NCBI RefSeq assembly: GCF_000003815.2
Contig: NC_049988.1
Location: 16,984,088-17,048,087 of the forward strand
Reading direction: 5' to 3'
DNA: 64,000 nt
From: Branchiostoma floridae
Lineage: Eukaryota > Chordata > Leptocardii > Amphioxiformes > Branchiostomatidae
Of the stretch, positions 689 through 46,533 are shown piece by piece (position 1 is the stretch's first letter; every line of letters begins with the position of its first letter). Position numbers and translations under genes: made by a program. Below the pieces are notes generated by a model. It saw nothing but the letters and a program-made list of their open reading frames with translations. It was not told where the DNA came from and did no database searches.

Positions 689-2646
689 ATGGCGGGCAAT
701 CCTCGACAGGCTCTATTCCTGAAGATTTCTCGAAATCTAGTAGATGAAGAACTTACCGATCTCCGTAACTATGTCAGCGGTGCAGAGATCTTATCAGCGA
801 GATTCGTCCAGAAAGCGGACCCTCATCAAATCTTTACCCAACTTGAAAAAGAAGGGAAGCTGAAACCAGGAGATCTCTCACTTCTGGCAGACCTCTTGAG
901 AAAAATTGGAAGGAATGACTACGCTGAGCAGGCGGAGAAGGTTGCTGAGGATGAATGGAAAAAAGGTACGCAATTATTCAGTAACTACAAAGTCAAGACC
1001 AACAACGACCGATCGCGAGGTCAGCACAGCCTTCCTGTAGTAGTACCAAACACACCTTTGAGTAAGAGGTCTTACTATAAAGTAAGACCAGAATCTTTTG
1101 CAAAGTTCAAGGATCGATTCAGTAGAAACTATAAATTGATGTGATGCTAACTTTGGCCTTGTGCTTTCTCAGGAAAAAAGACCAGGAAAAGGCCGACAGC
1201 CAGCGGCAGTTCATCTACCGAGGAGGCACCTGCCAAGCGACGGAAACAATATCCTGGCACAAAGCAAGAAGCAGGGCCGTCCGGACGGAAGCCGAAAGGT
1301 GAGTTAAGATTGATTTTTGTCATATTGATTAAAATACTCAATCTTTGAATATATTTCCGAGCATACCTACATATTGTTATGATACATGATTTGCACAACA
1401 TCACTCCAACTTTACTTGGTCATTGTATATTTTTAGGGGGTGGGGGAGTGCTGATTCGCGAGCTTTGATATAGGCCACGCCAGGTTCTTGCCTTGCGCCC
1501 GTCAGAGGACATAGCCTTTATTTATTTATTTATATCGCAATTCGGCGCTTCCCGAAAAATAAATGCCAGCGCTCCTAGAGGTTTGCGAATCTAGATATTG
1601 CGTAATACGCAAAAGTATGGCTTAAAAGACAATAAAATACACAAAACCTAAGAAATTTTTTTTTTATCTGTTTTATAAATTACTCGTATTTGAGTATATT
1701 TCGATCCCAGCAGTGCCGCACCGGTGCCCCAAGTCCGGAGATACCTTGGTAATGTGAAAGGGGAAGAATACTATTTTTTTGCTTATGTGTGAACAGTTCG
1801 TGAAGTGTGTGGTTGGGTTTAGCCGACTACACTATTATCTAGTGACATTTTCTATGATTTGTTGTTGTTCCAGTTGACGTGTCGAAGTATTTCGGCAAAG
1901 TCATCCGCGAGGCCAGCGCCGATTGGGACGAATTGGCACGAGAGCTGAACTTCGACGAAAACGAGATAAAAGAAATAGAAGATGAGAGACGTGGCAACCG
2001 TAGGAGATGTAGGGAGATGCTGGAACGGTGGAGAAACAGAAAGAGCAAAGCTGCCACTCTTAAAGTTCTGAAGAAGGCGCTCAAGCAAATCGATCACAAA
2101 CTCACTGCCGACCGTTTGGAAGGTAATTCTAAATATAATATCTCTTCTATTGATTGCATTGGACCTGTTACGAGTCTAACGACTATGTCCTGAACGTATA
2201 TTATAATGATACTTGCTTAACAATTGTAATCACTTTAAAAGTGTTTAGAACGAAACAATTTCCTTGTCTATTAATTAAGTTAAATTTTTCTCTGTCTCAC
2301 TCATGGCTCACGTATGGTGATTTATACCATTGGTAGTTTTAAGAAAAGCCCCGGACTGTGTCCCAAATATCGTGATGTCCTTAGTGACCACAGTGTCATA
2401 GAGTCCTGCTCCCTCACCGGAAAAACATTTACTAAGACTCTCTTGCTCACTATGTCGCCTCTACCTTAATTCCTAGAACTTAGTGAGAGTGACTTACGAG
2501 TCTGATATTCTAGACATTAGTGTACAAGGAACATAATACAATCTATTACTGTAACAACACTTCTTCAAAAGATGTTTGGAAAATAGTTATTTCTTCTTTT
2601 CTCAGATTCCTCAGCCTCATCGGAGTCTTCAGAAGACTGCAACTAA
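689..2646 (+). CDS. FADD-like: FADD-like death adaptor (DED + death domain), gene 1
   Basis: Four exons: 689-965, 1173-1298, 1874-2122 and 2606-2646. All junctions are GT-AG in phase 1 and sum to 693 nt, 230 aa (human FADD is 208 aa). Exon 1 encodes a death effector domain at about residues 7-85, ending in the DED hallmark R-x-D (LRKIGRNDYAEQ). Exon 2 is a basic linker with two clusters (TRKR and AKRRKQ), like a bipartite nuclear signal. Exon 3 is a death domain (W-D-x-L-A-R-E-L then a conserved ERWRNRK helix). Exon 4 is a Ser/Glu-rich acidic tail ending EDCN. DED followed by DD is the architecture of FADD, which bridges death receptors to DED caspases in the cytosol. ATG 689 is chosen because all three DED paralogues start at the same MA(D/G)NPRQ. 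Exon 1 stays open past its donor to 1144, but the paralogues support splicing at 966. Confidence 0.85.
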
Positions 2647-4625: not shown

Positions 4626-7600
4626 ATGGCTGACAATCCTCGTCAGTTTCTGTACCTGAAGATTTCTGAAAGCCTGGTAGATCAAGAACTTAGAGATCTC
4701 CGGAACTATGTCTGGGGTGAAAGAATTTTTGCAGGGGGATTTGTCCACCGTGCCAACGCTTACGAAATCTTCGACCGACTTGAACAAGAAGGAAAGTTGA
4801 AAGCAGGAGATCTCTCTCTTCTGGCAAACATCTTGAGAAAAATTGGAAGGCATGACTTCGCTGAGCAGGCATTGAAGATCGCTGAAGATGAACGGAAGCT
4901 TGAAAGTAAGTAATGATTCAATAATTATAAGTATTGGCCATGATTGTGCCTTAAAATACTTGAATTTAAGTAGATCTACTTGTGGAGCTCTAAGTGGGAC
5001 GTTCAGCGCCGGATTTGTAGATGATAACCAAACGTGCTTACGACACAAGACAGGCATGATTCAATAGCAATCTTAAATTTCCGTTAGTGACCTACAACAT
5101 GAGTAAAAGTGTGAAGAACCGTTGCATAATAGCCCTCATTACGGTTGGACGGGCAAAATTTAACGTACGCCGCCATTTTTACTTGTAAACCAGTGACGAT
5201 TTACGTCACAGCCGTTGAGACGGACCAAAGTTAATTGAAAATTCTTGACAATATACGTCCGTTTCTTATGAATTTTTGTATGTTAATGCAGATTTTTGTT
5301 TTGGACAATTGCTAACAAGACAGAAATGAACAACAGAGTATGTATAAAGTACATAGCGGAAGTTAATTGTGCCTCCCAAACACGTTCACGCCCCACGTCT
5401 ACACTTCCGCGTTGTTTCGATAGCGATATTACGTTTTTAGCAGGACAAGAGAGAAAATAAAAATACACAGAAGAAAACGAGATCTATAGCGAACGTTCGC
5501 GTGGAAGTGGGGCGTGGTTATAAACGTTTTGTATGAAATACATTGACCTTGTGCTGTGGTTTAACATGTACTTTATATTTCACGAAAGCGTTGGATTTGA
5601 TTTCAACAGTTACACAATCACACCTCATCGTGCACCGTCACTGTGTCTGACGTTTATGTATCACATCACCATACTATTATGCAGTTAATTAAGCCATCAT
5701 TTTAACAATTAACGTGCCTAATCTCAGTGAATTTATTTGTTTTCATATGGTTTGAAGTATACTGAGATAACGTAGTAACTTGTTTTCTTCATCTTGACGT
5801 TTATGCATCTTGTTTCTGTAGATTCCTTTGAGAAATTGAAGCACCTGCTAACAGAGGTGAGAGTAGAAGACCACTCCCGTCCTGACACCTACAACAGACT
5901 GGCCAGGCACGTGGCTGAGTCAGGGCTGACCTTCCGGGATGAGGTGCCGGGGGATGGGAACTGCATGTTTCACGCCGTGGCCGATCAGCTCTTCCGTACG
6001 GAGGGGAGACGGATTAGTCACGGGGTTCTGCGTCAGCGAGTAGTTGACTACTTGAGGCAGAATCCGCATAATGTAAGTAATAGTTATCTAAATATGAGCC
6101 AAACAAATTACGTAATACAAATGGCATAGATAGGGCAATTTGAAACTGTTTTGTGTTGATATGCAACATGACATTCATTGGCATAAATGTTGTCTCAAGC
6201 CAATCTCAGCAAATTTGTACAAGAGTCCTAGGAGAACTAGGATCAACTAGCGTAAATTATAGCCAGACTGGTTCGTAGGATACAAAATCTGCAAATAGAA
6301 TTAGTGACTTAGGTTTCAAAACTGTATTTCAGGGCAACGGTGACCACCTGGGAGCCTTTGTTTCCGGCAATCAAACTTGGGAAGGTTACCTGAGCACCAT
6401 GTCACGTGAGGGGACGTGGGGAGACCACATCGTCCTACAGGCCATGGCGGACATGTTTGGTCATGACGTCAGCATCGTGTCCAGTGTAGAGGCGGAGAAC
6501 TACGTCACCATTCTGACACCAAGTACCGGGACTGTGGGCAGGAGAGAACCTCCTCTGCTACTGGGGCATTATGCTGAGAACCACTATGCAAGTCTGGATG
6601 GTAAGTCATGTTAGTAACTTTATTACCATTAACTTGGAAGAATGTATTATGATGAGAAGATTTTTCTTTCTTTTAACTCACGATGATCAAGTGTTGGCAA
6701 TTTGTCTTGTGAAATTCCGGATCCCAACAGGTTTATAATAATAAATCTGGCAATAAGGTATTTTGTAAACTACGAATAATCATTGTACATGGGGATTAGT
6801 ATCAAGCCAAGCAATCAACCAAAACATTGTTTCATCAGTCCGAGGCTGGAATTACCACCACAAGAAATGGTTTACAGGATAATACTTAAGTTTTTATACT
6901 TATAAGTACAGGTAAGACAATAAATGTTTCTCCAGCATGCACTTTGTACATTCATTCTGCAGTTCCGACCAGGCAGATGATCAGGCAAGAAGTCGAGAAC
7001 ATAATCTACGGTTGGTCATATCTTTTGCTGTGTCTTTTCTTATTTGTGGTAGATGATTGGTTCTGTGCTAACTCTAAACTGGGCCTAACTGTTGTATGAC
7101 CGCATTCTACGGCATTCCAACATTATTCGAAACATTCTTATCTCATTCGATGAAGAACCGAAACGGCAAGCCACTTCGAATCCTGCCAGAATGTAGTCAA
7201 AAGAATATCTGGAATGCAGTGATAATTTCTAGAATACACTACGAATTCCCAGGAATAGAAAAGAATTTTCATTTTGACGTCATTTTGGCTCATTCCTTCT
7301 CATGTGAAGGGGATGTAAGGTTCATTTGGAATTCCCACCCGAATGGTCACGAATGTGCCACGAATTTTGCAAATACTTCATTCCGGCTGGTTCTGCTTGA
7401 TTCCTGCTAATTTGGTTTCAGTGTGAAGGCCCTATTAAGTATTATCAAGTTCTTACAGCTTATTTGCATTCTGTATAAAACACAGGGAATCCACTTCGCG
7501 AGGAGACAGACGACTTGGAGGCTAGTGAGGACACGGGGTCCTCCTCTGACGACGACGATGGAAAACTCACCGTGAAAGTACAACCCTGCCCCGATGCCTT

Positions 7601-10600
7601 TCGGACGCAAACGATAAAGGAGGTAATCTTGTATATATATATATATACACCCATGGTTAAATACAGGTCACAAGAAAAGAATAGTTGATAGATACATGAA
7701 ACAAAAACGATGCCAACCTTTGACAAGAATTAAATTATTCTACATGTTAGATTGACGCAGAAGTTTGCAAAGAGATAATTTGCGGTGTCTAGCTATGTAG
7801 CTATATAGTTTTTCATTCAAAAAAATGTGTGTTCTGTGCCTCTTGTTCAGAAAAGTCCGTACAGGATGTGCAGTCTTCCACGGGGATACGCCTTGATTCT
7901 GAATAATACGAAGTTCAACAAATTACCCAATCGACGAGGTGGTGATGTTGACCTGTACAACATGAAAGCTTTGCTCGAGGGTCTGTCATTTGAAACCTAC
8001 ACGTTGCAGGACATGAAAGCACAGGTGAGTGCCGAGCAGCTTTGTGACTTGACTTATTCGCATCTCTTACAAATCAGGATCCAACTGATCATATATAAAC
8101 AAATGTATAGTACCATATATCATTCATCATTCTTTCCAGACGATAAGTGACGAAATCCGAGCATTTTCTAAACGAGAGAAGCATGGGGAAATGGACTGTT
8201 GTGTCGTGGTGCTCATGTCAAACGGAACAAAAGATGGCATCTTTGGGACGGACGAAGAACTCGTGCTGTTGGACGACGTCTTCACCATGTTTGACGACGA
8301 GAACTGCCCTAATCTGAAAGGGAAGCCAAAGCTGTTCTTCATACAAGCTTCTGGTGGAGGTAGGTTGCTTTGTGTTTGTAATGCGTCAAGCTGAAGTGCG
8401 GCTTGTCTCCGTCATTGTTACCTGAAAATGAGATTAATTGATGACCACAGGTATATCTAATGTTGTAAGATCGGTTTCAAAACAAGTTCAATATATGTAT
8501 GGCAATGTTTCATGCCATGGATATTTGTTAACAATTGCAACCATCCTTTGAAGCTATCAAATCAAGTATTAAACATTCACAATCATAAATAATGTGATCC
8601 TGAAGGATATAATATTTCTATCACAGGAATGTTGGACAAAGGTGTAGCTGTACCTGAAGATGAAGATGACAGCTCAAGGACGGCAATGCTCCCAACCAGG
8701 CCCGACATGGTCTGTTGCTATGCAATGCACTTAGGTACGCAAAACACGCGCGCACACAGCGAGCCAGTTGTAATGTTGATGTTAGTGGTATTTAACTTTC
8801 ACATGTCGCTTAAAGGTCCCTAAGACGTTTATACCTAGCATGAACGTTTTGTGGCAGATGAACAAAAAACAATTGCAAGACTAGTTTATGTTCCCTTCTG
8901 ATCATTGGCTTACATACCATTGTATTCTTTCTTTACGTAAGGTTATATACGTCTAACGACAAGTTCTCTGTTGTTGATTTCTTGCAGTTTCTCATATCCA
9001 TCTAAGTTGTCGACGTCTGTACCTTTTCAGCTTATCACATCATTTCTGAGTAATAACAACTCATTCTTTGCTTTGTTCCATTTCCACAGGGCACGTGTCC
9101 TTTAGGAACACAATGAGTGGCACTTGGTTCATTCAGACCATAACCAAAGTCTTCATGGAGCACGCCAAGGACAACAGCCTACTCGAGATGATGACAAAGG
9201 CGAGAATGCACTTTTTTCTGAACAGTATCTATTGCTAGCCTTGATATTTGTGTCTGGATAAACTATCATGGTCACTGAGAAGCATATCTTCATAATGAGG
9301 TATTGTACTTTAGCTTCCTTAGCGCAAGATCGGCCTTTAGAAATAATTACTCCATACAGAAAGAACATTCCTTAAATTAGCCACCGGTGGATACGTACGT
9401 TTTTTTAACTGACGATCGAATGGACAATGTTATAGATGCTTTAATTTATTGAATTAGTAGAAGAGCTGTTTTGTACTTATTTCATTGTAAACTCTGATGT
9501 GGCATAAACAAAGGTTCTTATAATCGAAGAATTCCGACTTCCAACATATACAGGTGATCGACGACGTTTCCAAACGAACGGCTCGGTCACCATTCAAGTC
9601 TACCATCTCTGGGGGCAAGCAAGTGCCCGATGTTGTCTCCACTTTACTCAAGCCGCTTTACTTCTTTCCTGGTATGACCTTTTCCGTGTTAACATCATCA
9701 GAAAAAAACACGTTTGTTTGGCCATGGGTTCTTAAGCTTAGATTTGGCATGGAGGTATCTATTTGAGTTAAAATACCACGTGGAGTAATCACGCATCTTT
9801 TGGTGTCAAACTGTCAACCGTGTACATGTTGTCCCTAATATCAGCATTTGCTTATGAGTTGTGATAATATTTTATCATATATTCTCAAACCAGTTTTTGT
9901 TATATTGAAAACTGATGGTAATCTGTTCCTTTGGTGCACCATTTAAGACATATTTGTCTATGCTGGGAAAGAGTCTGACTTCAAGCAGACTTCTGGGTGC
10001 AGTTAAACTCCCTACGTTGAAAATCGCGGATAAGCACTCCCCTCGAAAATAGACACAACTGCTCCAGATTTCCGCGAAAGAAATGCAGAATGACCCAAAT
10101 AACTTTAACCAGATTGTTACATAATCCAATGAGGTTTCAATCAGATTAGATCCTCTTGATAATGAAGACAATACTATTTGAAATTTTTAGTCTGAAAAAA
10201 TATCAATCCGGTTTGAATTCCAACTGTCAAAGTATCTACGTTAATTGTATCTACATGTCAAACTTGAAAATGTCTTCATCACAGCTGGATTAGCTTTGGT
10301 AGCTGTGTGTCTAGAAAAATGACTTATGATTGTGGTGCCTACTTGTAGTCTAAGAAATAACTATGGACTAGAGATATAATTGTACATATAATTGCCAGCC
10401 AATCTCTCACATTAACTGTCTAGCAAGTGTTGTTATTACTTTGTATTTTGTTATTTTGCTAGGTATCTTTCAAGCGAACGTCTTTATATACTTAATTTCT
10501 CATCTGTTGTCTCTAGATTTCAAATATAACTCGAACTTATCTTGTACTTTGCAAACTGTTTCAGACAGGTCTACACTGATATGAACTTCACGGGTGCCAG

Positions 10601-13600
10601 TAGCATACTGAAGTTGATGTTTACGTTATCCTATTTATACTCTAGGTGCAATAAAATCATAAACAGAGAAGTGAAGTTTATACGGATGATTTTTTATCAT
10701 CATGACAGCCTTGATCACATTTCCTTTTTCTAAATCATTTTCCGCACAGATTCTGGATCAGTACCAGTTGAAGTAGAGTTGGGAGGGCCTGAAATGAGAG
10801 CTCTGTACGATCGTGCCTGTGAGGAAGGACACACGGAGGTCTACAGCACCCGATTTGTACTTATCGGCAAGTTTGGCAATGGCAAAACTAACCTGTGTAA
10901 CAGCCTACTTGGGGACGACTTTGAACCCGAGTGGAAAAAAACCGACAGCATTGCGATCCACCCATGTGTCAAGACTGAGGGACAGCAGTGGAAGGAACAA
11001 GAAGGTATATTGAAAAATTGCAGTTACTTATGATTTCAATAGGCTAGCGTTCAAGGAGAGTGATTATACATTACAGTTATTATATTTCAATTCATACAAG
11101 TTGTGCCCTTTGATTATAGATACTCCTCATTGTTATGCAACAATACCTAAGTATGCCCTACCTATCATTTTCAGGCCAACAGGATCAGTTCCCCTACGCG
11201 GCTGCAGAATGGATGAAAAAGATGGAAGATGACCAACAAAAAAGCTCCAAATCACCTGCTGAGTACAGCCAAGCCCAAAATGAATCTTTTGGTAACACGC
11301 AAAGTGGTGAGTAATGATGACTGACCATTTAGATCGTTTTGTCCATGCTAGAGCGTTGCTTAATAATCGTTAATGTACAGTAAATGGGAGGTTACAGTTA
11401 TTAATCTTCTCTTGCAGCAATGACCAATCTTGCGGAAGCGCCAGAACCACAACCATCCGAACTGACGAAACCAATCATAGCAGCTGGTGAGGTACAGTTT
11501 GTTGAGACGCCTCCGGAAAACAATGAGGTTCGCACGCAGAAACTTATCTTAAGACAGAAGAGATCTTCCCCCGAAATGAAGACCATTCCAGTCTCCTCGG
11601 TACGAGAGANNNNNNNNNNNNNNNNNNNNNNNNNNNNNNNNNNNNNNNNNNNNNNNNNNNNNNNNNNNNNNNNNNNNNNNNNNNNNNNNNNNNNNNNNNN
11701 NNNNNNNNNNNNNNNNNNNNNNNNNNNNNNNNNNNNNNNNNNNNNNNNNNNNNNNNNNNNNNNNNNNNNNNNNNNNNNNNNNNNNNNNGTATGTGGAAAT
11801 CTACAATTAAGGTACAATAATTAACTCACTTCGATGTTGATAATAAAAATGGCTTACACATTATTACAGCGNNNNNNNNNNNNNNNNNNNNNNNNNNNNN
11901 NNNNNNNNNNNNNNNNNNNNNNNNNNNNNNNNNNNNNNNNNNNNNNNNNNNNNNNNNNNNNNNNNNNNNNNGGTCATGATGTGTAGCAATTTAAAGGCCA
12001 TCGATTTTCATAATGTTGCTCATTGACTCTTTGATGGCAAAGTTAGGGGCTTTTATGTGACTCACAGCCTATGATTGGTCATGTAAGTCCTTCATTCAAG
12101 GAAATACAAATAAATGTAGTTCATATTTTACCTTTCTCTTTTGGCATTATAAACTCATGTGTCCAATGCAGACTACATCGACTATCATCTGGAGTCCATT
12201 CGGATGTATACAAGATCAGCAAAGGAAACCGAACCACAAAATGTACTGTTTATCTTCACACACAAGGACCAAGTCACTGAGGTATTTTCATGCCCGTCAA
12301 ACCCCCGTAGAAATCATTGACCTCTTTTATCTTTGTTATAACAGAAGCGTCCATAAAATGTGCTTGAATGTAAGGTATCAAATATTCATTCGTTCATTAA
12401 ATGACTTTTATAACACTACACTTCTATAGTAATCTACTGTTTCAGCAGGGTCATATATTCTAATGCTTATCATTAGCGTTACTCAAAATATCCGAATGCA
12501 TCATCGTTTTGCTGAAAGGTTTTATTATTCAGGGAACCGTACTAGCATATCGTCATTGGTATTGTAACATTCTTTTCTGCCCGCTTACCTTTTGTTGTAT
12601 TCGAAACCGTTCTTGCACTTTTTCAGGAGACAAAGAAAACGTTCCACGTCGAAACAAGAAAGCATCTTAAAGGTAAGGAAATCAACAAGCACGTCATTGG
12701 TCGGTACTTTTCGGTGGACAACACCAAACGGAATCCAGAGGATCCAGAAATGGCAGAGTTGAGAAATGCTATTTTGGACCTGGCCAAAAAACAGAGCTAC
12801 ATGGGAGAGAGGATCCCCATCAAGTGGCTGGAGCTGAAATCAAAGTTACAGGACATGCACAAGGAAGGCAAAAGGTACTGCAGCCTGCAACAAGTGATGG
12901 AAGCTATTGGCAGTCCTCCTGCAGGAACCACACAAGAAGAGAACACCATCAGCATCCTGACCTTCTGGCACCTCTGTGGAGACATAATCTACTTCCCGGA
13001 GATTGAGAACCTCCGCAACTTTGTGATCCTGGAACCACAGTGGTTTGTGGATGTCTGCAAAACCATCATCACAATCCCACAGTACCAGGATCAGGGTCCC
13101 GGAGATAGAGACGACTGGGACTGGCTGAGAGAAACCGGAGAGTTAAGAGATCGTTTGATTGAACAAGTATGGGGAAACAGGAAATATCTGATCGACCACA
13201 AGCAAGAGCTGCTGGGCATGATGGAGAAGTTTGATCTGGTTCTCCGGTGCCATGGGAATGAGGAGAGTGGTTCCAAGTCTGTTGTTGAAGAGGCGACATA
13301 CTTTGTTCCTGCTTTGCTCACAACAGTGACTGATGCCAAGAGGCTCTACCCAAGCAATACAACATGCAGCAAGCCGATCTTCATCGTATTTGACGGCAAA
13401 TTCTGTCCAGTTGGACTGTACCATCGGTTGGTCGTCAACAGCACGCGTAGGCACGACAGGAAAAAGCCACTGGCATTTGCTTCATGTGCAAGGTTCATCA
13501 CAAGTAACCCACAGCAGACCTTCATAGTCACCAAAGAGACATTCTATCTGAAGATTGAGTTGGTGTCCTCAGTCCAGGATGACGCAAGCCGCTTCAGCCA

Positions 13601-15850
13601 TGGTCCCGGTGTGAGGGCAGGTCTGGACGAAGATCTGAAAGAGATCATCGTCAAGTGGGCTCCAGGTATCGGGTACGAGTGGTGCCTCAGATGCTGCTGT
13701 GCTGACCACAAAACAAAAGGAGATGTCGACCGTTTCCTCCCTATTGCAGAGACCACAGCTGCTGAATGCTTCAAGAAAGGTAAAGTGGATTGTGAGGCTT
13801 ACGCACCTGCAACTACCTCAGTCCACGATATTGGTCTCGCCGACTGGTTTCATGACCCGTGAGTACATCCTTGTCGTTTCATTTTTTTAATCAAGATATC
13901 AGAGCTTATTTGCAACAAATACTTTTATCACACAATTGCGTTGTAGAGATCATTGATGTTTTGTTTAGACAAACCTAGCTGGCCTGGTGTTGTATTATGA
14001 CCACATTTGCTCTTTTAGGCGTACAAAAAGGGCAGACGAAAGGTCATCGGCTCAGCAGAGGGGTCCCCCATCAGGTAGGTTTATCGATATACACCAGGTG
14101 GGACTGTCATTTAAGCAAATGTTTCCGCGATGACTAGATTCTCACATTATTCACATTGGTTTGCTTTGGGCTTGGGGCCAATTAAATATGTACATGAACA
14201 AGAACATACGAGAACCACTATGCAAGTCTTGATGGCAAGTCATGTTTGTAACCGTATACATTAAACTAGACTAATGGTTAGTAATGAATGTATTATGTTA
14301 AGAGAATGTTTTCTTATCTATTTATTTCTAAACTGCAATGATTACAATGTACAATAATTCAAGTTCTTTATAAAAACACAGAAAAGCCCAATCAAACTTG
14401 CGAGGAGACAGACGACTCTGAGGCTAGTGAAAACTCTAGTGAGTCCTCCTTTGACAACGACGATGGAAAAATCACCGTGAAAGTACAACCCTGCACTAAA
14501 GATTTTCGGAAGCAAACTATAAAGAAGGTAATCTTGTAACAGTCACCCTCTTATCTTTGTGAAGACTGTTTTCAGCCCTGGTCTATTGACGTGGCGTGAT
14601 ACTATACATATAACAGCACACAATCAGGATATTGTCGGATAGTAGCTTTTTATGGATATGTGACCAAATAGAGTTATTACCTCCATGAAATGTCATGGAG
14701 GTTATATTTTACCCCGCGTTTGTCTGTGTGTCTGTGTGTCTGTCTGTGTGTAAACAAGATACTCAAGAACGGCTGGGTGGATTNNNNNNNNNNNNNNNNN
14801 NNNNNNNNNNNNNNNNNNNNNNNNNNNNNNNNNNNNNNNNNNNNNNNNNNNNNNNNNNNNNNNNNNNNNNNNNNNNNNNNNNNNNNNNNNNNNNNNNNNN
14901 NNNNNNNNNNNNNNNNNNNNNNNNNNNNNNNNNNNNNNNNNNNNNNNNNNNNNNNNNNNNNNNNNNNNNNNNNNNNNNNNNNNNNNNNNNNNNNNNNNNN
15001 NNNNNNNNNNNNNNNNNNNNNNNNNNNNNNNNNNNNNNNNNNNNNNNNNNNNNNNNNNNNNNNNNNNNNNNNNNNNNNNNNNNNNNNNNNGATGAAATAC
15101 TAATTATGCAAAATAGGAGCAAATTTGCATAATTAATGACAACATTCAATCATAGCAGTTTTTTCTATGTATCTCTTGTCTTGGACGTGATATGGTCTTG
15201 AAATTTAGGTGGTAGATAGCTTTCAGTGTCATGACAAAGTGGAGCAAGTTTCAGCCCCCTAACATTTAATTTAGCAACTGCAGGGGCGTTTTTGTCAAGA
15301 CATTCCAAAGAGGATAACTGCAGAAAGGCTTGACGGATTGGCATCATATTAGGCATGCAGGTACCTTAGGCAAAGATGTTCATAATGATATACATGTTAT
15401 GCAAATGAGGACTTAATTTGCATAATTAATGAGGAAATTGTATAATTCCATTGTTTTCAATAACTGGACTTCAATAAATGTAACACATGTTAATTATGAT
15501 AGGTGGAATATAAGCAGATACTAAATATGGTAATGAGGAACTTATTTGCATAATTTATGTAAAAATTGCAAAACCGCTTTATAATTAATAATGGGAATTT
15601 TATAATTGTGACATGTGTACGATTGGCAATGATGAACAACACCATGCATAAATTATGTTAATGTCTTAGTCATTTGCATGAAATTTACAAAAGCTCTAAA
15701 TTTTCATGGAGGTATGAGGTCGCCGAACTCTAGTTTTGTCTTATCTGTTTATCCAATGTAAATTTGGAATGTTTGACATGTGATAACGTGATCGGTGGTT
15801 TGTAAAATCTCGTTTTCGGACAAAAAGTAGCTATGCGATAATGTGCGGTG

Positions 15851-15949
<99 letters not shown>

Positions 15950-18900
15950 GGGGGTATTCAAGCATAGTTCTTGTTTTTTTTTCATTCGAAAAAAACATGT
16001 CTTGTGTGCCTCTTGTTCAGAAGAGTCCTTATAAGATGGACAGCTTTCCACGGGGACACGCCTTGATTCTGAATAATACGAAGTTCGACGAATCATCCGA
16101 TCGAGAAGGTGGTGATGTAGACCTGGACAACATGGAAGCCTTGTTCGAGGGTCTGTCATTTAAGACCTACAAATTGAAGAACAAGACAGCACAGGTCAGT
16201 GCCAAGGACTTTATATCACTCATTCTTTTACAAACCAGGATCCGCCTGATCACAGATAAACAAATAACTAGATATATCCCCATATCATTAATCTTTCCCA
16301 GAAGATAAAAGACAAAATCGAGGCATTTTCTAAGAGAAGGGAGCATGATAAAATGGACTGTTGTATCGTGGTGCTGATGTCACATGGGAGCAAAGATGTC
16401 ATCATGGGAAAAGACGACGAACCCGTGCAGTTGGACGACATCTTCACCATGTTTGACAACAAGAACTGCCCTCGTCTGAAGGGGAAACCCAAGCTGTTCT
16501 TCATACAAGCTTGCCGTGGAGGTAGGTTGTTTTGTGTTTGAAATATGACACACTGACGTGCGGCTTGTCTTCGTCACGGAAATTGTTACCCGAAAATGAG
16601 AATTATTGATAACCTGAGTTACGTTTAATACTTCATGGCTGGTTGAATATATAACAACTCATTTCGTTATATTCATATCACGCACTTATCTCTATGTTTG
16701 GGATTTGCACATCAAATATCAAATATCAAACTGACATTAACATTAACCTTTCACCCTCATGAATGGCGTTGTCCTTAAGGATAGAACATTTTAATTACAG
16801 AAAAGGTGGACAAAGGTGTAGCTGCACCTGAAGATAAAGACGACAGCCCAGGGACTAATCTCAACACCGACCTTGAAGCCCTGCTGAGTAAGCTGCTGCA
16901 GAAGACGACATCCAAGGAGAACAGACTCGAGGAGGACGAAGCAGACGGGCCTGAGAAGATCCCAACCAGGACCGACATGCTCTGTTGCTATGCGACACAG
17001 CTAGGTACGTAACGAACACGCGCCTAACGACAGCGGCAAAGCCGTAATGTTGATGTTATCATCGATAGAGAATTTTTACAGGTCTTTTACAGGTCTGTAA
17101 AACGCTTAAGCTTAGCAAGGCAATGACAAGACGTCGGTTATGTCCCTATTCTGATTGTAGGCATATAATTCATTGCGTTCCTGTACGTCTAGTGATACGT
17201 TGTCTTGCTGTTTCTCATCATTTTGGAACTACAAAGAGCCAACGTAAGTTAACGTAAAAAACACAATTTGTTGAAGTCTATACCTAACATCTTTTTATTA
17301 CATCATTTCCAGGTGATTGAAAGTCATTGTTTGCTTTGTTCCATTTCCACAGAGCACAAGGCCTTTCGAGGCGACAAGCATGGCAGTTGGTTCATCCAGG
17401 CCATTACCAAAGTCTTCATGGAGCACGCCAAGGATAACAGTATACACGAGATGATGGCAAAGGTGAGAAATTTCGCAAATTACTCTTAACACTGTCTCTT
17501 GCTAGATGTGCTAGCTAAAAGTATCATGGTCCATAAGACATACTTAATTGTGTGATGAATTTGTCTCTAATTTTAGCTCCCTTAGCTCAAAATCGACCGT
17601 TAATAATGGCTACTCCATACAGACAGAACCAGAAGCAAAATCTTTGAAATCCACAAATTAGCTACTGGTTAATATGTAGTTTTCATAGGCATGAAAATGC
17701 ATCCTATTGTACGAACAACTTTACGGATGCTTACATTTGTTTTTGGCGACGCCTCATGGGCGAGCCTAACAGTATAGTGTACGTCCGTTTGTCAAGAATT
17801 CCCAGAAGTGAACAGGTATGTCAGGAATTTATTTTCAGTGCGTATAGAGAACTCAAGACCGTGAGGCGCTGAGGCAGTGTGTTTGCCTCGGGACCGAGAG
17901 GTCTCGGGTTCAAATCCAGCTGCCGTGTTACTGATCTTGTGCCCTTGCCCCAATTGGGTAAGGCACTTTACACGACTTTCCTCACTTAACTCAGGTTAAA
18001 ATGAGCTTTGGCTAGGGCCGTCCCTCAGTTAGGGCGTTAAATGGAGGCCCCGTGTTTGGGGAGAGCAATACCCCAAGCACGTTAAAGTAAAGAACCCGCC
18101 ACATGTGCGATGGTACGGTATGAGTGGATCAAACCATTCCGGCCAAAAATGGGGTAGGGAATTTCCCGAGCAGCCCTCGTAACCCCTGCTTCGCCTATTG
18201 AGTCAGTTATTCCCCACTCATAGTGAGCAATTGGGCTGGTCTCAATCATGATGTTTCTTACCTAGGGCGAAGAGATGCTGTTACAGTAACAATGTAACCC
18301 GTAACCTGTGTGGCCAGGTTTTATTACGTGGTGACCATTAAGTAAAAAAAAAAGAACGGCTGGGTGGATTGGTTTCATACTTGGTGTGTCGGTAGGGTGT
18401 GACTAAAGCTGAAAATGATTAGATTTCGGGTCCCCTAGCGGCTTTTTAGTACTTCAGCGCAACTTACGGTTTTGCTATCGTGTTCTGAAGCAATGGTCGC
18501 TATTTTTCGGTGTTAGATAGCTCATGTGTTCCGAAAGAAGTGACACAAGTTTGGGCCCCCTAGCGGTTAGTTTTGGGATAGCAGGGGCATTTTAGTCAAA
18601 AATTTCTGAAGAGGATAAGTCAAGAAGGGAATGACGGTATTTTTATGATTTTTGGTGTAGGTACCTTAGACAATGTTGTACAAGATGAAATACAAATTAT
18701 GCAAAATAGGTGTACATTTGCATAATTAATTAGAATATTCTATCATTCAGTTTTTCCAATGTTTCTCTTGTCCCAGACATGATATGGTCTTGACATTTGG
18801 GTGGTAGATAGCGTTCAGCGTCATAACAAACTGGGGCAAGTTTCAACCCCCTAACATATTTAAATTTATAACTTAGCAAGTTGTGTTTCTTGTTGAATGT

Positions 18901-21604
18901 GATGTCAAGGACACTCGCCACACACAAGAGACCGTTTTTTCCTTGACAGTAGTGTCCTACAAACATTCACCGTGTTAAACATCCTTTATAAATACAGCCA
19001 GGCCATAGGATAAAAGGAAAATACTAAAACACATCAAGAACAGCAAATGTACAATATAATACATATAAACCATAATTCTGTTGCCATGGCAATGCATTTT
19101 CATTGCCACACTTTTTGTCATTGTGAACTCTTATGGATATGAAGAAAGGTTCTTGAACTCCAGGCATTTCGAATCCACACATATACAGGTAACCGCCGAC
19201 GTAATAACACGAACGGTTCGATCCTCAACCAAACCTACCATCTCTGGAGGCAAGGCGGTGCCCGTATCTGACTCCAGCTTGTGCAAGCCACTCTACTTCT
19301 TTCCTGGTATGACCTTTTCTTCATTCTTTACATCATCTGGAAAAAATGCTTGGGTTGCACAACGCTTGGATTTGGGATGAAAGGAGCGATTTGAGTTAAA
19401 GATACCACATGGAGTAATCACACATCGCTGGGTGTTAAACTATCAACCGTACAACATTTGATATCAACGATATCGGCATTTGTGAGTTCATGATAATGTC
19501 CTGTCCTTTGAGCCTTATCAATATCCAGATAAATCTAATCGACCTTTACGCAGGGTTCTAGACGAGATGATGTAAAGGGGCATAATCTATGTCATGGTAT
19601 TGACAATACTTAAAGCGTAATATCCTGTATTGTCAAACGAGTTTTGTTATATTGAGAACTAATTATAACTGATAGGTACACCATTCAAGAAAAGTCCTTC
19701 CAGCGGAACGAGGCCATCAAAGTCAACTGCAAAACGACCGAAGTCACCACAGCCTTCCTGCAGTGGTACCAAAGGAACGACTACAAGTCAGTTGGTTTTA
19801 GACATTTGTAAAAAAAAGGTTCACTTTCATATTCATACTTCTAACGACTGGTTGATCTAACCTTGGTTCATCGACGTCTTATGGTTTCATTTGAGACCGG
19901 AGAGTAACGTTACTAATATACGCTTTATATGACTTTTCTAGGTGGAAAATCATCTGGTGCATCCAAACACAAACATCCCTCTGAGAGTTCAAACTCTTCA
20001 GACGAAGATTCTCCTGGTGTTTCCACACGACGACAGACAACAAGAAAAGCATCAGCAAAGGGTAAGAAAAATGCAGTAGGAATCTTGATATAAACCAAGC
20101 CCAGAATCCTTTGCAACTTCAAGGGGAAATTCATTAGAAACTATAGATTGATGTAATGCTAACTGTGTCCTTGTGCTTTCTCAGGACAAAGGACCAGGAG
20201 AAGGTCGGCTGCCAGCGGCAGTTCATCCGACCCTGGCGCAAATCAAGAAGCACGACGGCCCGGACGGGAGACAAACAGTAAGTTTAGATCGATTTATGTC
20301 AAAGATATTGATGTCATTGGAAAATGTTCAAGCTTCATATGTCTTTCTGTGCATATGGATATACCGCAATGATAGATGATTTGGGCAAGGTCACTCGAAG
20401 GCTGCTTTACCTGTCCAGTGAGAAAGCATCATATCACATGAAAGATCTCTCTACCTGGCTGTCTATCCATGTAGAGATTTATTCGAACGTAGCGCCTATA
20501 CACCCTTAACGAAAATAGCATGTTCTAGATATTCTCAGGGGAATATAGCATTAACTTAACTCCAATTCATAGTCAGAACATCACGAGTTAGTCCAATTAT
20601 CGCAATTAAAATGAGATATCAAAACAAGAAGACATGCTGCCCTACCATGCCAAAAGCCGCTAGGGGCTAGCCAGAATCCAATTATATCTTCATTTTGCCA
20701 ACACCAATGAACATTCCAAATATCGTAGAAATATCAAATATCGTTGTAAGATCCATCCACTGCTTCGCGGGCTGTTCACAAATCAAGTAAACAACGTTCA
20801 ATTACTTTCACATTACCGACTTAGCATCCTTCGCAACCAGATAATTTTTGTGGGGTGGGGTCAAACCCAGGTAGAAGAACACTGATTTAATGGCCAAACT
20901 ACTCATAAAAAGGATAAAATTCGACACATTGTTTCAACCTGCACATTGTTCCAACAACTTTATTCTTTGAGAACATCGATTCGCGAAAAATTCGAACTAA
21001 GGAACTCCATTCGCTTGCAGTGGAGTGTGTTCTATTTTTCGATGGAAGCCTATGTGATGCAACTATAATGAGAAGCCTGTGTGTTACGGAAAATTATCAC
21101 CCGGTCTGGAACACCTGTATCGAACGGTTATCGCGGCCCAGGTATGACATAATTTTCCGTATCACACACTGAGGCTTCTTAGTTGTACCACACAGACATA
21201 GTCATAGATTGAGAGTCCGGTCTCAGCCATTCTGCGGGTCGGATCATCCTCCGGCCTTCGAATTTTCGGGCGATCGGACCCGCGGTCAACTTGGTATCTC
21301 GGGTGATACGGAATACACCGTTATGCATTCTAATGTTATATGTAATATAGTCATTTGTTCGGCTGTAATGGATGCGACAACTTCACGAAAAAGCATGCTT
21401 AAAAAGGTATAAACTTATATTCTACATGTACATTGGTTTCGTAATTTTATGTTTTACAAAGTTGCACAAGTACGTTTTTGTTCTTCACATTCCATTTAAT
21501 TTCAGCAACTCTAGATCGAAATAAAAGAAAGAAACAAAAGACGTTTGAAATGTTTTTTCTTTTGTATTTCAGATTCATCAGACTCGGAATATTCAGACGA
21601 GTAG
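4626..21604 (+). CDS. Giant DED-OTU-pseudocaspase-Roc-COR-caspase protein
   Basis: Proposed exons: 4626-4905, 5822-6072, 6333-6600, 7486-7622, 7851-8024, 8140-8359, 8627-8734, 9090-9199, 9554-9671, 10750-11004, 11175-11306, 11418-11788, 12172-12281, 12627-13858, 14019-14074, 14382-14527, 16021-16194, 16302-16521, 16801-17004, 17353-17462, 19189-19306, 19676-19786, 19942-20061, 20185-20277, 21573-21604. Domains in order: DED (RKIGRHDFAEQ), OTU protease, acidic linker, caspase without catalytic residues, Roc GTPase, COR, Ser/Asp-rich linker, intact caspase, basic and Ser-rich tail ending SDSEYSDE. All phases agree. If exon 11418-11788 had the 378 nt of its paralogue instead of 371, the sum would be 5157 nt (1719 codons) with the stop in frame. 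The 7-nt shortfall abuts an assembly gap. Likely a cytosolic signalling protein. A single transcript is inferred; two separate genes divided near 14-16 kb remain possible. Confidence 0.6.
5822..6600 (+). CDS. OTU cysteine protease cassette of giant gene 2
   Basis: Two exons (5822-6072, 6333-6600) enter and leave in phase 1. They encode an OTU-family deubiquitinase fold: the catalytic Cys motif is GDGNCMFHAVADQLF, the middle block is TWGDHIVLQAMADMFG, and the catalytic His lies in NHYASL at the end. All expected catalytic features are present, so activity on ubiquitin chains is predicted. The exon follows directly on the DED start exon (phase 1 to phase 1). Paralogues at 35503, 43722 and 62643 are close in sequence. 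Confidence 0.85.
7486..7622 (+). CDS. Acidic linker exon before the pseudocaspase
   Basis: A phase 1 to 0 exon rich in Glu, Asp and Ser (EETDDLEASED, SSSDDDDGK), ending VQPCPDAFRTQTIKE. Homologous exons precede each caspase at 14382-14527 and 54418-54530. Their recurrence at the same spot supports the exon call. It is probably a flexible prodomain linker. The 885-bp intron before it (6601-7485) shows nothing else I recognise. Confidence 0.65.
7851..9671 (+). CDS. Catalytically dead caspase cassette A1
   Basis: Five exons (7851-8024, 8140-8359, 8627-8734, 9090-9199, 9554-9671) encode a complete caspase fold: start YRMCSLPRGYALILNN, the R-x-GGDVD block, the large subunit ending KPKLFFIQ, and a small subunit with SFRNTMSGTWFIQ and ending PLYFFPG. 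The catalytic His motif SHG is SNG and the active-site QACRG is QASGG, so both catalytic residues are lost. The exon between subunits is 108 nt against 204 nt in the intact copy and lacks the acidic cleavage-like segment. Joined to a DED, this resembles c-FLIP, an inactive caspase homologue that modulates caspase-8. Intron 9200-9553 starts with GC, not GT. Confidence 0.8.
10750..13858 (+). CDS. Roc-COR GTPase cassette A1 (one exon disrupted at a gap)
   Basis: Exons 10750-11004, 11175-11306, 11418-11788, 12172-12281 and 12627-13858. The Roc domain shows the P-loop GKFGNGKTNLC and the G4 motif THKD (in VLFIFTHKDQVTE). The G3 motif DFGGQE seen in both paralogues falls in the run of N at 11610-11788. 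The 1232-nt COR exon carries the dimerisation-type COR fold (ENLRNFVILEPQWFVDV, later LLGMMEKFDLVLRCHG) and ends with a Cys cluster (WCLRCCCADH). Roco proteins are large GTPases that switch by dimerisation. No LRR or kinase is seen. Just before the gap the third exon differs from its paralogue by net -7 nt, which breaks frame; this may be assembly error or real decay. Confidence 0.75.
11610..11788. other. Assembly gap inside Roc exon
   Basis: 179 N hide the middle of the third Roc exon including the expected G3 motif. The base after the gap is the first of the donor GTATGT. A second gap of 100 N (11872-11971) lies in the following intron. Confidence 0.95.
14019..14074 (+). CDS. Basic linker exon after COR
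   Basis: A 56-nt exon, phase 2 to 1, encoding RTKRADERSSAQQRGPPS. Homologues at 43402-43457 and 62314-62369 have the same length and phases. It restores phase 1 after COR so the next cassette can join. Confidence 0.7.
14210..14234 (+). pseudogene. Relic of a deleted OTU cassette
   Basis: The last codons of OTU exon 2 (NHYASLDG) survive, preceded immediately by sequence that in paralogues lies in the intron upstream of OTU exon 1. The two OTU exons were therefore removed by a deletion joining the intron to the 3' end of exon 2. The donor after it is GCAAGT. Because the OTU cassette is phase 1-1, the loss does not disturb frame. Confidence 0.7.
14382..14527 (+). CDS. Ser/Asp-rich linker exon before the intact caspase
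   Basis: Phase 1 to 0, encoding an acidic stretch (EETDDSEASENSSESS) and VQPCTKDFRKQTIKK. Homologous to 7486-7622. It is separated from the caspase by a 1.5-kb intron containing a transposon copy, a gap and a GT microsatellite. Confidence 0.65.
14680..15735. mobile_element. MITE-like repeat, copy 1 (with 307-bp gap)
   Basis: Begins at a small palindrome (CCTCCATGAAATGTCATGG) followed by TTATATTTTACCCC, a TCTG-rich stretch, then a gap at 14784-15090, and ends near TTCATGGAGG at 15704. The motif AAGAACGGCTGGGTGGATT before the gap also occurs at 18352, and the segment around 15181-15260 recurs around 18781-18850, so this is a dispersed family. No reading frame is evident. Confidence 0.55.
15853..15948. 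repeat. (GT)n microsatellite
   Basis: About 48 GT units in an intron. The long Val-Cys and Thr-His frames across it are artefacts of the repeat. Confidence 0.95.
16021..19306 (+). CDS. Intact caspase cassette A2
   Basis: Exons 16021-16194, 16302-16521, 16801-17004, 17353-17462 and 19189-19306. Large subunit starts YKMDSFPRGHALILNN; the catalytic His is in VLMSHGSKD and the catalytic Cys in FFIQACRGG. The exon between subunits (204 nt) contains EEDEADG, a plausible Asp cleavage site, and is 96 nt longer than in the two dead copies. The small subunit has FRGDKHGSWFIQ (substrate-binding Arg) and ends PLYFFPG. Family knowledge predicts a cysteine protease cutting after Asp, of initiator type judging from the linked DED. 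It is the only caspase in the window with both catalytic residues. All its introns, including 17463, use GT donors. Confidence 0.85.
17840..18350. mobile_element. tRNA-derived SINE
   Basis: A tRNA-like head has an excellent B box (GGTTCAAATCC at about 17909) and an A-box-like stretch near 17845. It is followed by a body with GTAAGGCACTTTACACGACT and a tail ending in an A-rich run at about 18345. This is the layout of polymerase III SINEs. It sits in the intron between caspase exons 4 and 5 and abuts the repeat at 18351. Confidence 0.65.
18351..18860. mobile_element. MITE-like repeat, copy 2 (partial)
   Basis: Shares AAGAACGGCTGGGTGGATT and later segments with the element at 14680-15735, including the part missing there through the gap. 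It lacks the palindromic start, so it is truncated, perhaps by the SINE inserted just upstream. Confidence 0.5.
19676..21604 (+). CDS. FADD-derived C-terminal tail exons of giant gene 2
   Basis: Exons 19676-19786, 19942-20061, 20185-20277 and 21573-21604. The first two encode Ser/Thr/Lys-rich low-complexity sequence. The third (RTRRRSAASGSSS) matches the FADD-like linker exon at 1173-1298, and the intron before it (20088-20184) matches 1078-1172. The last (SSDSEYSDE, stop TAG 21602-21604) matches the FADD-like acidic tail exon. The death-domain exon that should lie between them is absent. The 3' end of this gene is therefore a FADD-like gene minus its death domain. Confidence 0.65.
21071..21180. 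repeat. Imperfect hairpin repeat
   Basis: The arms AGAAGCCTGTGTGTTACGG and the complement of CCGTATCACACACTGAGGC are inverted copies about 60 bp apart, with AAAATTAT/ATAATTTT inside. A small MITE-like palindrome in the last intron of giant gene 2. Confidence 0.55.
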
Positions 21605-23819: not shown

Positions 23820-26379
<2,560 letters not shown>

Positions 26380-35502: not shown

Positions 35503-36174
35503 ATGGTAAGATATTTTGTTACTACAGAAACTTTTCAGAAGTTGAAGCACCTGCTAACAGAGGTGAGAGTAGAAGACGACTCCCGCACCGACACCTACAA
35601 CAGACTGGCCTGGCACGTGGCTGAGTCAGGGCTGACCTTCCGGGATGAGGTGCCGAAGGACGGAAACTGCATGTTTCACGCCGTGGCCGATCAACTCTTT
35701 CGTACAGAGGGGAGACGAATTAGCCACGGGGAGCTGCGCAAGCAAGTAGTTGACTACTTGAGGCAGAATCCACATAATGTAAGCAATAGTTATTTAAATA
35801 TAAGTTATTAAATACACGCAATACAAATGGTATAAATAGTTTACAAGGCAATTTGAAACTGTTCGCTGATGATACGCAATATGACACTGGCATAATTGTA
35901 TTTCAGGGCAATGGTGACCACTTGGGAGCCTTTGTTCCCGGATACAAAACCTGGGAAGTTTACCTGGACACCATGTCACGCCAAGGGGAGTGGGGAGACC
36001 ACATCGTCCTACAGGCCATGGCGGACATGTTAGGTCATGACATCAGCATCGTGTCCAGTGTAGAGGCGGAGAATTACGTCACCATCCTGACACCAAGTAC
36101 CAGGACTGTGGGCAGGAAAGAACCTCCTCTGCTACTGGGGCATTATACCGAGAACCACTATGCAAGTCTGGATG
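35503..36174 (+). CDS. OTU cassette D1
   Basis: Exons 35503(or 35528)-35778 and 35907-36174. Catalytic Cys in KDGNCMFHAVADQLF, catalytic His in NHYASL. Structure and phases equal the OTU cassette at 5822-6600. Predicted active. Confidence 0.82.
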
Positions 36175-39100
36175 GTAAGTTGACAAAGTAAAAACTGTCT
36201 AGAACAAGAGTTCGTAGACCTCAGGCCTGCATGAAATGTATTGGGTGTCTGTAGACCTATTGTTTTTTTTTTTCCTTTTCGTCCGTGGTTGCGTGGTTGG
36301 AAAAGTGAGATTTTTACCTTGTTGGTTTGACTGCACCATGCCAAAGTCTGAAATTCCATTTTGGGAATGTGTAAGCTTGGGCATGGATGAACATTACTTA
36401 TTTTGGATTTCTTAAGCAGGTAACCAACCACAGTACCTTGAAGTTGTTGAGACGACTTTTCCTACCTTTTTTTGTCTCAGATGGCCCATGTAGTTATTCT
36501 GTCACATATGACTTGGCACTGGAAGGTTATTTGCATAATTTGACCAATTATATTTTTACAGTAGTTCCATAGACTATATGAATAGTGGTAGCCCCCATCC
36601 AGCAGCAACAGTTAGTCCCCAGAGTGGTATGATATTTTATTCAATCCGTCCAACTAAAACCTAAATGTCTTGAAGTACCTAAGCCAAATTTAACAGCAGA
36701 ATTTACTATTCAAAATGTCCTTTTCAATCCCATTCATAGATGGCAAGCTGCTGCTGCTTTAAAAAGTTCAGAAAGCTGTGTAGTCAGAGTNNNNNNNNNN
36801 NNNNNNNNNNNNNNNNNNNNNNNNNNNNNNNNNNNNNNNNNNNNNNNNNNNNNNNNNNNNNNNNNNNNNNNNNNNNNNNNNNNNNNNNNNNAAATTTAAA
36901 ACAGAACAAAGCCTCTACCACTTAACCCTGCCCGTACTATAGATTAAGCAGGCCCAAAAGTCAAGCGAATATGACTAGCCCCAAACTACAAATTACCTGC
37001 ATACAATACGGAAATGGCAACCCCAAAGAAACAGCAAGAAGGAAAAACCATACACATACCTTTCTCTAACACTCAAGCTCTATACATTTCTTCTCCACTT
37101 CAGAAAGTTGTATCTTCTGCTGATTGCCACACAGGGTAAAGGAACTTGTACCAGAACTTTAAACTCAGTACTACACAGCTCTCAAAACACCACAAAGTAG
37201 GACTAAGTAGCAAACTCAAATTGTACCTAACAAATACAGCAACAGATACTAGACTAGGTATGTCATCTGGCAGGTTAGACACTGTTGATACAAAGTAACC
37301 TGATACATTGAAGGTGGCAGAAGCTAGTGCAAAAACAGATGACGATTCTACACCTAAGCTTAAAGACCTATCAATCAACCCAAACCCAACCAAACCAAGC
37401 AGATATTGGGGGGATGCCCCAACCACACAAAAACAGGGTCAACCTACAGTATCAAGTTCAAGCACTAGGAGGCCCAAAATCAAACCTGACCACCAGGACA
37501 CCAGCAACAACCCACGAAACAAATAGCAACACGATGGCACCTTGCGTTCCGGAGATACAGCGCACGCGCAGTGCCCGCACAAAAGGTAACCTGGAATGTC
37601 AAGTTCAAGCACCAAGGGCGCCAAAATAAAAATTGAGAATTATTCAGCCACCGCCAACACATGTGCCAAATATCATTGCGCCCGCACCAACTGTTCAGAA
37701 GATATAACTCCGGAAATACCCCTCCCGGACACAAAATTCGACCTGCCGCGTCAAGTTCAAACGCGACAAGGCCCAAAGTCAATTCTAGGCAACAGGCAAC
37801 AACTTCCCACCCATGCACCAAAAATCGTCGCAATGACGCGTATCGTTCCGGACACACAGCGCCAAAAGTTCCCCAAAAACACCAAAAATGCCACCTGCAA
37901 TGTCAAGTTCAAGCGCCAGGAGGCCCAAAATCAAACCTGAGTGTCAGGCTACCACCCCCAACCCACGTACCAAAAATCGTTGTGCTCGCACCATCCGTTC
38001 TCGAGATACAGCGCCCTAAATCCCCGGCTTCCAAATTTTCCCAAGCCCGTGAAAACCATACCTGCATACATGCAGGTAATTAGTTTACTCTCCAGTTGAA
38101 TCGACAACGTCGAAAACAACAACAAAACGCTAAATTCGTAAAGGCGAAAAATACATATAAATGATTGTCACTGCTGAGTAGCATTCATTATTTTCACCAC
38201 TTATACCAATCAACGGATCGGAAGGAAAAGGATGCATCTACGCATTTCTTTTGCAGTTCAATCCTCTGCGCAGGTGATTACGACATCTCCACAACACAGG
38301 GACACCCCGGACGGCAACCTTAAACATGGTAGGTTACGGTACATTTTCGATAGCTTCAGGACATACAAGCGGTTAACATCAAACCATGTTGTTTCTATCT
38401 CGCTGCTTTAAAAGTGACAGAGATTCTACTGAAGTACGAAGCAATCTTAATGCGTTATGTTTAAAATTGGTAGGCAAGCATGCTGTTCTCTTGGTCATCG
38501 ACGCGTATGAAAACGCGAACGTTGGCGTGCCGACAGTGAACCGCCAGGTGGCGCGCGTGCTGAGGAGTAGAAATGTAAAGGTGTACAACACAGTGCTGTA
38601 CCGAGACAACAAGACTGGTGACATGACTGACGCGCTCATAGATGACGTTCAACTGCTTTTCCCCGAAATCCACGACGGTGATGATAGGAAGCCCTCTCTC
38701 AGCTGGCTCACGTACGACCATCGAAGTCGCTATCCAAGTCTTCCTGAAGACATCGGCTTCGTCATCGGCCATGTAGACATCACCAGCAAGGCCGCAAGAG
38801 CGCTCAAGGAACAACGCCTCCAACACGCCAAGTTCTTTCTCTTCGGCCACGTTATACCAGAAGATACAGAGCACTACAAGAGTGACGAACGGGCGATGGG
38901 GATCGGAGACAAGCGTAAAGCCATCCAAGATGACATGGAGCAGGCTGATGCGATATTCTCGGTGGGACCTGCCATCTATGACTACTACCAGAACGAGATG
39001 AGGGATTCTACACTACACTACATGTTCCTGCCTAAACCGTCCGACATCTTCTTCAAATTTAAGAAGACGTATGTTGAAACTGAGACGAAAGTGGTGCTGT

Positions 39101-46337: not shown

Positions 46338-46533
46338 TGATTCACTTAAAGGTATTGTTACTTTTTGCAATACTATGGATGTGTTCCAGCTATTAACATT
46401 GTTAGCATAAACAAACAAAAAGAAAGGATGATACATTTTCAGACATTATTTGCATGTGTATTTAGGTATTTATGTGTATATAAGAGCATTGAATTCAATT
46501 CAAATAGTAATTGTTATTACATTTTTATTTCAG

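Follow-up and report, generated by a model that had tools for sequence, protein, structure and literature searches.

The original prediction for this amphioxus DNA placed a death effector domain (DED), an OTU deubiquitinase, a dead caspase, a Roc-COR GTPase and an intact caspase in one in-phase exon chain, and the question this raises is whether the chain is one gene and what its neighbourhood says of its origin. All positions are given within the window, the whole 64-kb stretch that was analysed; we refer to the locus at 4626-21604 as L1, and to two paralogous loci, at 35528-45762 and 50316-63836, as L2 and L3. Exons of L1 were modelled by hand, and the resulting model has 25 exons running from an ATG at 4626 to a stop codon at 21602-21604, encoding in order a DED, an OTU domain, an acidic linker, a dead caspase, Roc, COR, a short exon designated E16, a second acidic linker, a live caspase and four tail exons:

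4626-4905, forward strand: exon 1, DED with the start codon (phase 0 in, 1 out; Pfam DED; flank homology)
5822-6600, forward strand: OTU, exons 5822-6072 and 6333-6600 (DGNC and NHY motifs; phase 1 to 1)
7486-7622, forward strand: acidic linker exon 5' of caspase A
7851-9671, forward strand: caspase A, exons 7851-8024, 8140-8359, 8627-8734, 9090-9199 and 9554-9671 (Pfam Peptidase_C14)
10750-12281, forward strand: Roc, exons 10750-11004, 11175-11306, 11418-11788 (gapped, frameshifted) and 12172-12281
12627-13858, forward strand: COR exon (phase 0 in, 2 out; Pfam COR-A)
14019-14074, forward strand: short exon E16 (phase 2 in, 1 out)
14210-14252, forward strand: OTU remnant, the end of a second OTU exon, with the mutated donor gcaagt (self-comparison)
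14382-14527, forward strand: acidic linker exon 5' of caspase B
16021-19306, forward strand: caspase B, exons 16021-16194, 16302-16521, 16801-17004, 17353-17462 and 19189-19306 (Pfam)
19676-21604, forward strand: tail exons 19676-19786, 19942-20061, 20185-20277 and 21573-21604 (stop)

The predicted domain order was borne out by this model together with Pfam, which matched the DED (2.5e-8; 34.5 bits, slightly below the 35.9 cut-off), the OTU domain (1e-15), caspases A and B (Peptidase_C14, 6e-57 and 1.1e-60, respectively) and COR-A directly 3' of Roc (1.5e-18, compared to 1.6e-17 in L3 and 1.3e-17 in L2). Eighteen of the 23 donors, the GC donor described below included, score at least 7 of 9, compared with 4.3% of GT sites across the window, and 21 of 24 acceptors clear a threshold passed by 25% of AG sites, although both figures are biased upward because the splice sites were selected visually by someone who knew the consensus. 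The contrast drawn between the two caspases also held: caspase A has MSNG in place of MSHG and QASGG in place of QACRG, and so has lost its catalytic residues, whereas caspase B keeps the catalytic His and Cys (MSHG and QACRG; exon 16302-16521) and has 32 more residues between its subunits. The caspase of L3 has likewise lost His and Cys (MSNG, QATVG), and we regard both it and caspase A as predicted pseudo-caspases. Since the two share an Asn at the catalytic His position and the shorter inter-subunit stretch, inactivation probably predates the duplication that separated them. Among solved structures, caspase B was best matched by an entry named JF1cpCasp2, followed by CED-3 and caspase-2; Roc-COR is nearest to bacterial Roco proteins and LRRK2, and the OTU domains to OTUD5. 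With DGNC and a catalytic His, the OTU domains of L1, L3 (8e-16) and the second OTU of L2 (3.6e-15) are putative deubiquitinases; the first OTU of L2, compared with solved structures only, came nearest to OTUD5 (1.4e-7).

The case for a single gene had leaned on the exons joining in phase. The phases do agree, but the agreement proves little: the DED exon ends in phase 1, and the OTU, the linker with its caspase, the Roc-COR-E16 unit, the death domain (DD) and the FADD-type linker all begin and end in phase 1. Because these modules are flanked by phase-1 introns, any order of them joins in phase, and such joining is near-automatic and weak evidence for one gene; we therefore rejected it as proof. 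The same symmetry would explain a free rearrangement of the modules, and it would let such genes be rebuilt fast, which fits the presence-absence variation of death-domain and caspase genes described for lancelets in the text of one report (PMC12373286).

The claim that the chain closes on a stop was not confirmed: the exon order, most splice sites and the stop itself stood, but not the third Roc exon, whose gap had been assumed to bring it to paralogue length. With its run of N taken at face value, exon 11418-11788 measures 371 nt, against 387 in L2 and 378 in L3. Its gap (11610-11788) holds 179 N where L3 has exactly 179 bases, and before the gap it carries indels of +2 nt (at about 11529-11539) and -9 nt relative to both paralogues, leaving 25 codons 5' of the gap out of the paralogues' frame. 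Read in this shifted frame, the L3 sequence meets a stop at the fourth gap codon and that of L2 about 33 codons in. Either the assembly is in error near the gap, or the Roc of L1 is truly broken, or the exon is skipped, which would keep the phase because the exon is 1-1 in L2 and L3. The full-length product of L1 is doubtful on this reading frame, since Roc is frameshifted as assembled. Roc domains are recognised by the GTPase motifs G1, G3 and G4, all of which are present in L2 and L3 (GKFGNGKT, DFGGQE and THKD); the weak Pfam score of the L1 Roc (0.0091, compared to 1.3e-10 in L3 and 3.9e-11 in L2) probably reflects the position of its G3 region within the gap. A further Roc exon within the second gap was ruled out, as in the paralogues the third Roc exon can be spliced straight to its successor (phase 1 to 1).

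A second feature of the frame, overlooked in the original prediction, is that the donor after 9199 in caspase A is GC, where the live caspase B has GT. The dead caspase of L3 shares this GC donor, there after 57504, so that the route from caspase to Roc needs it in both loci; if it is unused, the frame stops after 12 more codons in L1 and 20 in L3.

What had been described as one locus has the predicted row of domains, yet two other Roc-COR loci, elsewhere in the window, had been missed. Mapping by tblastn of exon peptides against the window (E up to 0.01), together with self-comparison, located four DED exons (at 689, 4626, 23820 and 50316), four OTUs, three caspases, three Roc-COR blocks and two GT4 glycosyltransferases. 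The paralogous loci are arranged as follows:

35528-45762, forward strand: L2, with OTU 35528-36174, GT4 38377-39667, Roc-COR 40139-43242, E16 43402-43457, OTU 43722-44398 and GT4 44535-45762
50316-57983, forward strand: 5' part of L3, with DED 50316-50589, DD 52119-52367, linker 54412-54530 and dead caspase 54878-57983
59077-63836, forward strand: 3' part of L3, with Roc-COR 59077-62178, E16 62314-62369, OTU 62643-63417 and a FADD-like linker 63714-63836

Roc-COR-E16-OTU in L2 comprises 899 open codons, and in L3 the last two caspase exons, Roc, COR, E16, OTU and the FADD-like linker together comprise 1012; the L3 caspase linker and first two caspase exons are open over 170 codons, while the third (56215-56323) is thrown out of frame by one extra base, with an 826-base gap lying about 120 nt away. 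The 56-nt E16, phase 2 to 1, lies 3' of COR in all three loci. Both GT4 copies of L2 match the Pfam GT4-conflict family (3.5e-61 and 8.3e-71) and end in phase 1 at a GTAAGT donor with no earlier stop.

Comparison of the loci at the DNA level separates a shared interior from differing surroundings. L2 and L3 share DNA from about 80 bp 5' of the first Roc exon to about 8 bp past the second OTU exon, and outside this block the effectors differ: a caspase and the FADD-like linker in L3, GT4 on both sides in L2. Roc-COR paralogues thus adjoin a caspase or a GT4 within one genome, and common DNA inside with different DNA outside is the pattern expected from effector exchange through introns. In L1, 14144-14213 corresponds to the intron that precedes the OTU at the other loci, and 14210-14252 aligns with the final part of the second OTU exon, its donor mutated; judged from these matches, an OTU once lay between COR and caspase B and has since been deleted, a loss the original prediction had not noticed. 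Several junctions are supported by the paralogues: Roc-COR to OTU by L2 and L3, caspase to Roc by L3, and in L2 a GT4 copy ends at a phase-1 GTAAGT donor 5' of Roc. L1 and L3 are 93% identical in DNA over 8871-11609, and the L1 COR is 90.5% identical to that of L3 and 87.8% to that of L2; as the caspase-Roc block is a recent duplication, L1 and L3 do not support the caspase-to-Roc junction independently. In L2, we sought a clean phase match for the joint from OTU to GT4 and found none, and neither tblastn nor self-comparison revealed a FADD-like tail exon 3' of the last L2 GT4 (45763-50000).

We consider it fairly probable that the window holds a tandem array of 1-1 modules, namely the DED exon, DD, OTU, linker with caspase, Roc-COR-E16 and GT4, which have been duplicated and recombined through introns, giving exon-shuffled Roc-COR-OTU scaffolds with interchangeable effectors. 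Roc-COR-E16-OTU would be the stable core and its neighbours would be exchanged, a caspase 5' and a FADD-like linker 3' of it in L3, and GT4 on either side in L2. The same data could instead come from separate neighbouring genes, one encoding DED, OTU and dead caspase and another, starting in the intron between caspase and Roc, encoding Roc-COR with an OTU or a caspase, in which case the apparent continuity would be an artefact of phase-1 modules joining in any order. The GC donor in the dead caspase is in keeping with such an arrangement, as are an in-frame ATG in the first Roc exon (GGPEMRAL), an AATAAA at 10650 upstream of it, and the first GT4's own in-frame ATG at 38386. AATAAA occurs at 0.71 per kb in the window anyway, however, and the first Roc exon has an acceptor and phase conserved in all three loci. 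In L2, moreover, the first GT4 runs to a consensus phase-1 donor (GTAAGT) 5' of Roc, and homologous 5' flanks with a start codon were seen at DED exons only. We consider separate genes rather unlikely.

Substitution patterns bear on whether the modules are maintained. We computed dN/dS for 25 pairs and bootstrapped eight of these, plus the four-exon Roc comparison of L2 and L3. Values for COR were 0.32 (L1 vs L3) and 0.31 in the two of three pairs that were bootstrapped (0.31 to 0.35 in the full table); for OTU they were 0.23 (L1 vs L3) and 0.28 (L1 vs the first OTU of L2) in two of six pairs (0.23 to 0.38 in the full table), and for the single GT4 pair 0.27. The upper bounds of these five bootstrapped pairs are at most 0.52, and COR, OTU and GT4 are under purifying selection. 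Over all four exons, Roc gave 0.44 between L2 and L3. Caspase B gave 0.48 against the L3 caspase and 0.53 against caspase A, and the dead pair, caspase A and its L3 counterpart, gave 0.67 (0.38-1.26), which is compatible with decay; constraint on the dead caspase is weak at best. Unbootstrapped values were 0.19 to 0.74 for DED, with the L1 pairs (0.38 to 0.74) looser than some FADD pairs, and 0.41 to 0.85 for DD.

These values enter a further explanation, that L1 is decayed or mis-assembled and that functional members lie elsewhere in the array. The Roc frameshift, the dead caspase with its dN/dS of 0.67, and the OTU deletion with its mutated donor could all mark a pseudogene, and a frameshift is found in the L3 caspase as well. 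Each frameshift is no more than about 120 nt from a run of N, however, where assembly errors are likely; COR and caspase B are open, caspase B retains its catalytic motifs, and the low ratios between L1 and L3 for OTU and COR speak against decay. We give this explanation little credence.

The two ends of L1 suggest where its cassette was placed. Two FADD-like genes, of which alpha was delimited by eye, flank the locus:

689-2646, forward strand: FADD-like gene alpha, with DED 689-961, linker about 1172-1297, DD 1858-2121 and last exon 2606-2646
23820-26379, forward strand: FADD-like gene gamma, with DED 23820-24092, linker from about 25411, DD 25920-26183 and last exon 26360-26379

Alpha matches Pfam DED at 3.7e-12 and Death at 3.5e-17. 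By self-comparison, each of the four DED exons has a 5' flank homologous to those of the other three (all six pairs). At the other end of L1, tail exon 20185-20277 corresponds to the linker in alpha and gamma, exon 21573-21604 and its flank match the last exon of gamma and resemble that of alpha, and exon 19676-19786 matches DNA just 3' of the alpha DED (63 bp, 77.8%); exon 19942-20061 had no match elsewhere in the window by tblastn at E up to 0.01. These FADD-like last exons had also gone unremarked in the original prediction. FADD combines a DED with a death domain, whereas L1 has the DED, the FADD-like linker and the last exon without a DD, the DD exons detected in the window by tblastn (E up to 0.01) lying only at 1858, 25920 and 52103. 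L1 therefore looks like a FADD-like gene shell with a cassette inserted after the DED, and the cassette would consist of an OTU and dead caspase followed by Roc-COR-E16, the deleted OTU and the live caspase. From the third FADD-like copy, at 50316, only the DED and DD enter this comparison. The linker exon expected between the L3 DED and DD (51420-51500) looks degenerate by eye.

How far the combination is new depends on known systems, with which the comparisons below refer to parts of the published text of each source. In bacterial AP-GTPase/COR proteins the effector position can be occupied by at least 24 different domains, including GT4 and caspase (Kaur et al. 2021, PMC8195603). The array, in which Roc-COR adjoins caspase or GT4 at the DNA level, would resemble them in joining a Roc-COR switch to variable effectors, with several paralogues per genome bearing different ones. 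The loci described here differ in being animal, exon-shuffled and OTU-joined, DED-headed in L1, and in bearing effectors on both sides of Roc-COR; the leucine-rich repeats that are N-terminal in the bacterial systems had no Pfam match in the four chains scanned. The same paper describes GT4-TRADD-N proteins in cephalochordates, hemichordates and cnidarians, in which a conflict-type GT4 has likewise been recruited to animal immunity proteins; in its text the partner is TRADD-N or LRR, not Roc-COR-OTU, and as its figures lie outside the comparison some overlap is possible. Amphioxus itself has 45 reported caspase genes, among them bbtCaspase-1/2 with DED and DD (PMC3196919); these too set a DED or DED-DD beside a caspase-2-like caspase and expanded by domain shuffling, and the main text of that paper nowhere contains 'OTU' or 'GTPase'. 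The amphioxus 'hybrid' immune genes, with TNFR-, LRR- and death-caspase combinations, some of them cDNA-confirmed (PMC2575513), similarly tie caspases to other signalling domains in new combinations, and the portion of that text searched contains none of 'OTU', 'Ras', 'miro' or 'glycosyl' as whole words. The TIR-bearing Roco proteins of Aplysia and sea anemones (PMC9334734, PMC5094078) and the shuffled ROCO exons of brown algae (PMC11378527) share Roc-COR with immune domains and exon shuffling, but their partners in these texts are TIR, death, kinase or LRR domains, with no caspase, OTU or GT4.

Among the matches listed from open-licence PMC text, figures and supplements aside, none was an OTU-Roc-COR-caspase or GT4-Roc-COR-OTU protein. 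The view that the combination is undescribed is in line with those matches, but exchangeable Roc-COR effectors are known in bacteria, and we regard the array as a probable animal, OTU- and DED-linked form of that logic rather than as categorically new. Two scans of bacterial and archaeal genomes for GT4 relatives returned 21 and 71 pattern matches, none of which was a relative by tblastn; PADLOC assigned no family to any of three proteins, and NCBIfam matched GT4 to 21 models of generic glycosyltransferases, each scoring far short of its cut-off, and gave none for COR, DD or DED. Predicted structures were poor (pLDDT 31.1 for COR from three sequences and 38.9 for GT4 from a single sequence) and no use was made of them.

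The domains of L1 taken together suggest what would be a self-contained death or immune switch, although the single transcripts, the protein functions and the mechanism as a whole are matters that we infer from gene structure and domain content. The DED would nucleate assembly with FADD-like partners, a GTP-dependent Roc-COR switch would alter the distance between the flanking arms, and the OTU would strip the complex of ubiquitin; the GT4 paralogue would instead mount a sugar-transferring effector on this chassis. For the paired caspases the nearest analogy is c-FLIP, which consists of tandem DEDs and a dead caspase and reportedly activates caspase-8, its dead caspase serving as allosteric partner of the live one. 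L1 likewise has a DED and a dead caspase that could pair with a live one, and its dead caspase would act as an allosteric partner in the same manner, so that by analogy the protein may work like c-FLIP. The likeness is partial, in that c-FLIP-L and caspase-8 are two proteins with tandem DEDs, whereas L1 has one DED match and both caspases in a single predicted chain, flanking the GTPase. As a tentative proposal, then, the array would encode an immune chassis of Roc-COR-OTU whose arms are swapped between caspase and GT4 by intron recombination, with a DED-bearing member that places dead and live caspases on either side of the GTPase in one chain, as a GTP-controlled counterpart of c-FLIP and caspase-8. 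If this is true, a caspase in one chordate paralogue and a GT4 in the next, together with a linked deubiquitinase and surrounding death-fold exons, would represent bacterial counter-invader logic at work in an animal, and the array would offer a direct way to test how Roc-COR dimerisation gates an effector.

The DNA between the modules holds some further elements. Between the DD and the caspase of L3, 52599-54206 is an element of about 1.6 kb with 207-bp inverted ends that are 94.7% identical, probably a DNA transposon. A direct repeat of 0.93 kb, 95.4% identical between 24195-25122 and 48289-49216, indicates a recent mobile or duplicated element. Between gamma and L2, 28863-30987 contains a ZU5-like stretch (0.0018) and a death-domain-like stretch (0.0016), both below the cut-off, which we take to suggest a gene of PIDD/UNC5 type.
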